Positions 5,453 to 34,110 of a DNA stretch of 41,581 nucleotides are shown here, in pieces; the stretch's first letter is position 1; every line of letters starts with the position of its first letter. A program made the translations under genes and the position numbers. The notes under the pieces were generated by a model, which made no database searches, was not told where the DNA came from, and saw only the letters and a program-made list of their open reading frames with translations. The stretch is from Candidatus Ancillula kalotermitis. Its GTDB lineage: Bacteria; Actinomycetota; Actinomycetes; Actinomycetales; Bifidobacteriaceae. The stretch spans positions 1 through 41,581 of the forward strand of contig JAISRT010000020.1 in NCBI GenBank assembly GCA_031273495.1, read 5' to 3'.

Positions 5453-5640
5453 TCCCGTGTCATTCTTGGATGGCTGCTGTCATTCTTGGGTGTTGCTGTC
5501 ATTCTTGGGCTTGTCCCGAGAATCCACGTGAGCGGTGTGTTCAATGGACCCTCGGCATAAAGCCAAGGGTGACAGAGTGGGAGCCAAGGGTGACAGAGTG
5601 GGAGGCTAGGGTGACAGGGTGGGAGCCTAGGGTGATGGAC
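5453..5640. repeat. REP-like palindromic repeat cluster (copy A) with short tandem units on both arms
   Basis: gtcattcttgggcttgtcccgagaatccacg ... ggaccctcggcataaagccaagggtgacag: imperfect inverted arms. The right arm continues as ~21-bp tandem 'gtgacagagtgggagccaagg' units. Confidence 0.85.
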
Positions 5641-9299: not shown

Positions 9300-9317
9300 G
9301 CGGTTAATAAGTGCCAA
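9300..9317 (+). repeat. Short dispersed repeat 'ggttaataagtgccaa' (copy 1)
   Basis: gcggttaataagtgccaa recurs at 9440; core ggttaataagtgcca also at 22375. Confidence 0.7.
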
Positions 9318-9439
9318 GTTTAGGGTTATAGTGCGTTATATGTTATTTTTTTTGACTATTCCATTAAGGGGCCACGGCCCCCCACCACCCGTGGGCATTA
9401 TAGCGTAAAATACTGGTAGAAGCGCGCGGAAAGTGCGCC

Positions 9440-9457
9440 GCGGTTAATAAGTGCCAA
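9440..9457 (+). repeat. Short dispersed repeat 'ggttaataagtgccaa' (copy 2)
   Basis: gcggttaataagtgccaa, identical to copy 1. Confidence 0.7.
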
Positions 9458-9496
9458 AACTATCACCCCGTTATACTTGGACACACCGACTCGCCG

Positions 9497-9683
9497 CCCT
9501 GTCACCCTTGGCTTTATGCCTCCTGTCATCCTTGGGCTTGTCCCGAGGATCCACGCTAATCGCTCGATTTTCTGCGTTTGTCGCCAAAAATGTACAACAA
9601 GTTGTCCATTGTGGCTCGTAAACTTGAAAATCCACTGACACGATGTACTCTATAGACCCTCGGCATAAAGCCAAGGGTGACAC
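9497..9683. repeat. REP-like palindromic repeat (copy B)
   Basis: tgtcatccttgggcttgtcccgaggatccacg ... atagaccctcggcataaagccaagggtgaca: inverted arms around a ~95-bp core. Confidence 0.85.
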
Positions 9684-9717
9684 GGGAACGGACACCCCGC
9701 GCACCATCCACACTAGC

Positions 9718-9777
9718 GAGCGCAGCGGTACATCCTCCCCATAATTAATTTGTTATGAATAGCACTTACTGAATTCG
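9718..9777 (+). repeat. 60-bp direct repeat, copy 1
   Basis: gagcgcagcggtacatcctccccataattaatttgttatgaatagcacttactgaattcg; one mismatch with copy 2. Confidence 0.93.
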
Positions 9778-9803
9778 TCAAATTATTCCGTAGGAAAATT
9801 TGC

Positions 9804-9860
9804 GAATGAAGTTAAATGAAGTTGAATGAAGTTGAATGAAGTTGAATGAAGAATGAAGTC
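9804..9860 (+). repeat. 10-bp tandem repeat (gaagttgaat)n
   Basis: gaatgaagttaaatgaagttgaatgaagttgaatgaagttgaatgaagaatgaag. Confidence 0.9.
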
Positions 9861-9869
9861 AAAAATGGT

Positions 9870-9889
9870 CAAACTCGCTTGCGAGTTTG
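9870..9889. repeat. Perfect inverted repeat (hairpin)
   Basis: CAAACTCGC-TT-GCGAGTTTG. Confidence 0.75.
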
Positions 9890-9920
9890 GCAATTGGCGG
9901 AAGGTGGGGTTTGGGGAGGA

Positions 9921-9980
9921 GAGCGCAGCGGTACATCCTCCCCATAATTAATCTGTTATGAATAGCACTTACTGAATTCG
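9921..9980 (+). repeat. 60-bp direct repeat, copy 2
   Basis: gagcgcagcggtacatcctccccataattaatctgttatgaatagcacttactgaattcg. Confidence 0.93.
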
Positions 9981-10161
9981 ACGCATTTGGTTCGATCGCT
10001 CCGCGCTCTCATTACGCCCCTCGCACAGGCTTCACCAGTGCTCAAACACACTCCGCTCGCTATTGCTTCTGCAAAGCAGGCGCAACTCGCTACGCTGGGC
10101 ATGGGCTTCGCCCGCATGCGAATGAAGTTAGTGCTATACTATAGAAATAGGTACTGATACC

Positions 10162-21659: not shown

Positions 21660-21852
21660 CCGCCCAGCGTGGCATAAAGCCAAGGGCAGGCGCGGGCTTG
21701 TCCGTCCCCTGTCATCCCTCATGGATACACTGCCTCCTCATGTCATCCCTCGGCATAAAGCCAAGGGCAAGCGCGGGCTTGTCCGCCCGCTGTCATCCTT
21801 GGGCTTGTCCGTCCCCTGTCATCCTTGGGCTTGTCCCGAGGATCTATCGCAC
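21660..21852. repeat. REP-like palindromic repeat cluster (copy C)
   Basis: ggcataaagccaagggcaggcgcgggcttgtccgtcccctgtcatccc ... gtcatccttgggcttgtcccgaggatcta. Confidence 0.85.
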
Positions 21853-33599: not shown

Positions 33600-33646
33600 T
33601 TCTATAGTGTAGCACAACTGTGTGTCATGTTAAGGTAAGCCGAGTT

Positions 33647-33668
33647 CTACAGTACCCCCGCTGGGATT
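33647..33668 (+). repeat. tRNA-Lys 3'-end fragment repeat, copy 1
   Basis: ctacagtacccccgctgggatt, identical to 34031-34052 at the tRNA 3' end. Confidence 0.85.
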
Positions 33669-33708
33669 ACTACTCGCTACGCTGTCCGCAATGTAGCTCA
33701 GTTGACTC

Positions 33709-33730
33709 CTACAGTACCCCCGCTGGGATT
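33709..33730 (+). repeat. tRNA-Lys 3'-end fragment repeat, copy 2
   Basis: ctacagtacccccgctgggatt. Confidence 0.85.
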
Positions 33731-33816
33731 ACTACTCGCTACGCAAGCAGACTCCTTCGTTCGCGGTTAGAATCCTTCAAACAAGTTTGATGATTCTACG
33801 CTCACTTCAGTCGTAT

Positions 33817-33862
33817 CGAACCCAGGACACCCTGATTAAGAGTCAGGTGCTCTAACCAACTG
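33817..33862 (-). pseudogene. Partial tRNA-Lys copy (anticodon arm plus flanks)
   Basis: 46 nt identical to 34053-34098 inside the intact tRNA; lacks acceptor stem. Confidence 0.88.
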
Positions 33863-34036
33863 TCATATTTTTGCCTCGCTCCTCAGCGCTCGCTTCGCTC
33901 GCTATATCGTCGCTTTCCGGCGCGGACCTCGCCTCGCCTACGCCTCGGCTCAAGCACACTTCGCTCGTTTAACGCTTCTGCAGAGCAGGCGCTACTCGCT
34001 ACGCTGTCCGCAATGTAGCTCAGTTGATTTCTACAG

Positions 34037-34110
34037 TACCCCCGCTGGGATTCGAACCCAGGACACCCTGATTAAGAGTCAGGTGCTCTAACCAACTGAG
34101 CTACGGAGGC
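34037..34110 (-). tRNA. tRNA-Lys (anticodon CTT)
   Basis: gcctccgtagctcagttggttagagcacctgactcttaatcagggtgtcctgggttcgaatcccagcgggggta folds as a cloverleaf; anticodon loop CTCTTAA; CCA not encoded. Confidence 0.95.

Follow-up and report, generated by a model that had tools for sequence, protein, structure and literature searches.

The window, meaning here the whole stretch of 41,581 nucleotides that was analysed (GC content 48%), carries on its reverse strand an intact tRNA-Lys gene with anticodon CTT (34036-34110; ARAGORN; Rfam tRNA, 71.4 bits). Beside this gene lie several partial copies of it. Followed in the direction of the tRNA, the first half of the locus (33647-34110) consists of the gene with its trailer, the D-arm copied in inverted form over 12 nt (CAACTGAGCTAC), the motif GCGTAGCGAGTAG and a dispersed repeat; the second half consists of a truncated copy of the gene, an 85-nt insert, the tRNA 3' end with its trailer, a second inverted D-arm with GCGTAGCGAGTAG and, finally, the 3' end again. 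The repeat units are spaced 62-384 bp apart.

The truncated copy (33816-33862, reverse strand) covers tRNA positions 13-59, and its 47 nt are 100% identical to 34052-34098 of the gene. Its acceptor stem has no 5' strand, and the copy is broken off in the T-loop, where it is split by the 85-nt insert (33731-33815, reverse strand), which contains the hairpin TAGAATCaTCAAActtgTTTGAaGGATTCTA and ends with GCGTAGCGAGTAG. Two copies of the tRNA 3' end with trailer, one from position 59 onward (33709-33730) and one additional (33647-33668), both on the reverse strand, match 34031-34052 exactly. The inverted copies of the D-arm (positions 7-18) are on the forward strand and have the same 12-nt source (34093-34104): (i) GTAGCTCAGTTG, found by inverted-repeat search just beyond the 3' trailer (34015-34026); and (ii) a second copy at 33693-33704. 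The former stands at the end of a 36-nt block, CTACTCGCTACGCTGTCCGCAATGTAGCTCAGTTGA (33992-34027), which is repeated exactly at 33670-33705, neither block being assigned to a strand. The initial annotation had already listed the internal fragment, both 3'-end copies and the duplicated block; all are real, the 3'-end copies at exactly the coordinates then given and the fragment one nucleotide longer than described (46 nt from 33817). That list is incomplete, as it omits the two inverted D-arm copies and the dispersed repeat (33873-34011, no strand assigned).

Chance does not account for these repeats at tRNA-Lys, since the window holds 17 local repeats of at least 15 nt, five of them at this locus, whereas each run on a first-order Markov randomisation of the entire window yielded 0-1. 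The dispersed repeat has related copies at about ten further places in the same genome (G000; 1.07 Mb, 62 contigs, 81% complete). As single-stranded DNA it folds no better than shuffled sequences (z +1.56), and a strong hairpin is not supported on that basis. Other repeats are dispersed in G000 as well. Composite repeats (GAATTCAGTAAGTGCTAT..., CAGCGTAGCGAG..., CAAACTCGCTTGCGAGTTTG) occur at 9300-10100 of the window and at four other loci (L015, L017, L020 and L021). They directly precede promoter-like TGCTATACTA motifs belonging to several genes and look like substitutes for the upstream parts of the promoters. A second family, TGTCATCCTTGGGCTTGTCCCGAGGATC / GGCTTTATGCCGAGG, forms intergenic clusters at 5475-5604 and 21671-21836 of the window and at many other loci of G000. 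Between 5688 and 9251, on the reverse strand, the window encodes a protein of 1187 aa with FtsK/SpoIIIE and AAA domains.

An observation restricted to tRNA-Lys is far too small, as roughly every second tRNA gene in G000 shows the pattern. Each tRNA was compared with its own flanks (up to 500 nt, E<0.005) after masking all other tRNAs; 75-nt windows inside long reading frames (n=168) served as control. Self-fragments were found at 17 of 33 tRNA genes (excluding one tRNA at a contig end, whose match is a gene-call artefact) vs. 3 of 168 protein-gene windows, all three of these matches being short (Fisher p = 5e-13); the random expectation for the tRNAs is below one. In about 128 kb of G000 surveyed for local repeats, nearly all the gene-touching direct repeats that do not belong to dispersed families lie at tRNAs. 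Fragments were also looked for at rnpB and tmRNA, likewise structured, and none were found; structured RNA in general was thus rejected as the target.

There are two exceptions in that survey, both flanking a copy of the dispersed repeat present at tRNA-Lys: (i) a 45-nt direct duplication, itself a quasi-palindrome, in L011 (G000:C43:16000-17200; 490-534 and 660-704); and (ii) a 97-nt direct duplication in L022 (G000:C17:33700-34540; 349-445 and 573-669). In consequence, the process is not strictly bound to tRNAs. A reading frame in L011 for an rsgA-like GTPase, named from its sequence motifs, is apparently cut short by the dispersed-repeat copy.

The fragments form cassettes with two layouts, here read segment by segment, by eye, on printed sequences. 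In the upstream layout, the promoter or leader is followed by a 5' piece of the tRNA and a filler that can form a hairpin. Next come, in most cases, another sense piece and then an inverted stretch that overlaps with it, an AT-rich linker and the intact tRNA. The 5' piece starts at about -2 to +1 and usually ends at positions 16-21, in the D-loop. Cassettes of this type precede about ten tRNAs in G000 (Pro-TGG, Arg-TCT, Met twice, Ser-GCT, Ser-CGA, Leu-GAG, Val-TAC, Tyr and Gln-TTG) and six in the congener G002 (Ala, Gly, Pro, His, Met and Tyr). The downstream type is the mirror image and was found at Lys and Val-GAC in G000, Pro in the congener G001, Met and Tyr in G002, and Asn and Asp in G006, from another genus of the same family. 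As seen at Lys and Val in G000, the intact tRNA is followed by an inverted stretch, filler, a truncated copy that is broken at the T-loop, and 3'-end copies; the truncated copies of this type are without their 5' side and often have hairpins in their loops. This mirror symmetry argues for an origin at the DNA level and not in RNA processing.

Assuming that the junctions are independent, 13 of 26 right-hand ends of sense pieces fall at positions 16-21 (p = 8e-7) and 28 of all 53 junctions fall in loops, which is a modest excess (p = 0.004). The duplications measure from about 20 to more than 100 nt. The fillers are mostly unrelated to one another and unique within the DNA examined, and a single repeat family of fillers was rejected for that reason. 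One hairpin, AAAACATCAAGAAGTTTT, occurs exactly twice in G002, in the leader cassettes of Pro-TGG (L246) and Ala-TGC (L247), and this sharing suggests a transfer between cassettes. The linker motif ACAACTnAATAY has nine occurrences in G000, eight of them upstream of tRNAs, whereas the reversed pattern has none, so that chance was rejected there; one operon-internal Gly-TCC tRNA is preceded by the motif and has no fragments. Its counts in G001, G002 and the third congener, G003, are near those of the control and, hence, the exact motif is specific to G000; AT-rich linkers resembling it were seen by eye in G002. We infer that the linker serves as an unstructured spacer favourable to processing.

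Among the draft, metagenome-type assemblies compared, self-fragments were found in the congeners at 7 of 31 tRNAs (G002), 2 of 23 (G001) and 1 of 23 (G003), and in other genera of the family at 3 of 16 (G006), 1 of 9 (G016) and 0 of 26 (G011). The affected tRNAs differ mostly from species to species: the process is therefore common to them and the events are independent and repeated. Pro-TGG and Tyr have cassettes in two species; their breakpoints, filler and fold-back site differ, which identifies them as separate events. No fragments of tRNA-Lys(CTT) were found in the family members examined, congeners included, and the Lys event thus belongs to the lineage of G000. The earlier suggestion of recent or ongoing duplication fits both the identity, or near identity, of the copies and the mostly different tRNAs hit in each species. 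At the tRNA-Asp of G006 (L271), the entire downstream unit (about 150 bp) is present as two nearly identical tandem copies.

In minimum-energy folds of the precursors, the inverted stretch is predicted to pair with the D- or anticodon arm of the intact tRNA, and the acceptor strand of the truncated copy often with the real 3' acceptor strand. The cassettes might accordingly be functional, leader and tRNA forming a precursor with two stable states: the inverted stretch would sequester the D- and anticodon arms, the truncated copy would compete for the 3' acceptor strand, and the maturation of the tRNA would be regulated or a decoy made. The mean coupling predicted between leader and tRNA is -9.0 kcal/mol for 17 upstream cassettes and -1.3 for 45 ordinary leaders (p = 1e-7), with a mean z of -2.6 against shuffled leaders, and the linker motif recurs directly upstream of tRNAs. 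Nevertheless, the coupling follows automatically from the presence of inverted copies and, hence, is no proof of function; co-transcriptional self-folding of the leader may even avoid it. Moreover, breakpoints, arms and fillers vary with the tRNA, those tRNAs hit in two species carry unrelated cassettes, the downstream cassettes have no linker, and some truncated copies (Pro and Tyr in G000) are decaying through substitutions. A regulatory role is, on these grounds, unlikely.

An unrecognised mobile hairpin, mobilised in trans, could insert into tRNA-gene loops and duplicate a long stretch of its target, the survivors being only those insertions whose duplication covers the nearer end of the gene. 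The fillers are mostly hairpin-forming, lie in D-, anticodon- and T-loops and have direct duplications on both sides; a dispersed repeat is present at the window locus, and one filler hairpin is common to two cassettes of G002, and to those only. It is difficult to reconcile with such an element that most fillers are mutually unrelated, that the length of the duplication varies so widely, that the supposed element would contain inverted pieces specific to the tRNA, and that neither a Y1 transposase nor a reverse transcriptase was found in G000 (81% complete). A similar hairpin recurring at many sites, as would be expected of double-hairpin-type (DHE/RHE) elements, was not seen, the one shared filler being present at two sites. 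The mobile hairpin is thus considered rather doubtful. The same tentative standing is given to its broader form, a tRNA-directed hairpin-insertion system of reduced Bifidobacteriaceae that would act on single-stranded tRNA loops, with the intact copy regenerated and precursors left with two competing folds. The tRNA-derived mobile repeat once proposed at Lys does not hold as worded: the fragments match the adjacent tRNA best, so the pieces appear not to travel between loci. Off-target matches, mostly shorter than the cognate ones, are shared arm sequences or neighbouring tRNAs with a common flank, and movement of tRNA pieces between loci was rejected. What survives of that proposal is the dispersed repeat and the hairpin fillers, which keep a mobile element under consideration. 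Searches for Y1 (IS200-like) transposases (PF01797) found none in G000 (81% complete) or in 34 relatives, and RAYT-driven spread of REP sequences was rejected. Reverse transcriptases (PF00078) were not found in G000, at the same completeness, nor in G002 or G003 (there is one in G001 and there are two in G006), and reverse transcription or retrohoming was rejected for G000.

Scars of att sites from lost integrative elements, also proposed in the initial annotation, have in their favour the 3'-end duplications, which resemble attL/attR remnants. Yet 5' and inverted pieces are equally common, fragments stand on both sides of the tRNAs and in both orientations, and the units are merely tens to a few hundred bp apart; where att sites would leave nothing but directly repeated tRNA 3' ends at the borders of a former element, tRNA-Lys has 5', internal and inverted pieces. 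The PF00589 integrase family has two matches in G000 (81% complete), both on other contigs (C30 and C37); at 306-323 aa these proteins look Xer-like, judged on size and number only. This origin is scarcely credible. Artefacts of assembly or amplification, with chimeric or inverted joins, deserve consideration with draft, metagenome-type assemblies, and amplification chimeras can be inverted. Against this, the cassettes are concentrated at tRNAs, several separate assemblies show the same layout, each time at tRNAs and at many of them overall, some truncated copies have accumulated substitutions, and G011 has nothing of the kind; such an artefact is therefore very unlikely to be the cause.

The best explanation, to which an even chance is given, is a recurrent mutation process at the DNA level that strikes tRNA genes in this lineage: fold-back template switching, after which selection would retain only products with an intact copy. 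While a tRNA gene is being copied, DNA synthesis would break off within or beside a stem-loop, most often in the D-loop near G18-G19 and also in the anticodon and T-loops. The nascent end would then fold back or switch strand, copy a short inverted stretch together with hairpin filler, and restart outside the tRNA gene. This would yield an intact tRNA accompanied by a truncated copy, with an inverted stretch lying between the two or to one side, while events without a surviving intact tRNA would be lost, which would explain the mirror-image upstream and downstream layouts. Template switching would thus be the cause and selection the filter. Inverted pieces adjoin many of the fragments, that is, a local reverse-complement copy stands beside its source, and template switching is known to produce reverse-complement repeats and RNA hairpins, also in RNA genes (PMC8794818). 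In termite-gut Bifidobacteriaceae, many DNA-repair genes have been reported missing and no transposable elements were detected (PMC11707648). Judging by its order, its GC content and the size range of the family, G000 probably belongs to this group, as an associate of termite flagellates. The clean rnpB and tmRNA and the modest excess of junctions in loops count against template switching. Furthermore, the filler hairpins, the conserved linker and the filler common to two G002 cassettes are more than a single simple switch would produce, and for this reason the mobile hairpin is retained as an alternative.

No description of such tRNA cassettes was found in the literature searched, which lay mostly outside the subscription journals. 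As far as can be told, the elementary template-switch step is known and its genome-wide, tRNA-focused and stereotyped form in bacteria is new. If the process is mutational, these genomes would preserve fold-back events by the dozen, on genes whose structure is known, so that predicted sites of polymerase template switching can be checked against the arms of the tRNAs; if the system is instead mobile or regulatory, it would be a new mode of targeting tRNA genes. Either way, essential RNA genes of a reduced genome can be reconstructed repeatedly alongside their own debris, and many pseudo-fragments are to be expected in tRNA annotation and tRNA-fragment RNA-seq of such genomes.

Several known systems share features with these cassettes. 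At tRNA att sites, tRNA 3' ends are duplicated as well; the cassettes differ in their 5' and inverted pieces, their very short spacing and the lack of a candidate integrase nearby. Rickettsia palindromic elements enter genes, RNA genes included. Like these and the REP/RAYT systems, the window genome has dispersed intergenic repeats in a bacterium, although the repeat of the window is not unusually stable as a hairpin; unlike REP/RAYT, no Y1 transposase was found and the tRNA fragments are local and cognate, with no dispersed family. The mobile hairpins of organelles (double-hairpin elements and the hairpin-forming elements of sponge mtDNA; PMC2800124) are also small non-coding hairpin insertions whose dispersal mechanism is unknown, but they are repeated families, whereas most fillers here are unique and it is the host tRNA itself that is duplicated. 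There are further parallels with template-switch mutations (the Ripley model; Monttinen and Loytynoja, PMC8794818), in which short reverse-complement copies also adjoin their source, hairpins are created in RNA genes and fold-back takes place on existing stem-loops. Unlike those mutations, the footprints described here are multi-part (duplication, filler and inversion), leave whole truncated gene copies behind and, within a single genome, are seen at roughly every second tRNA gene.
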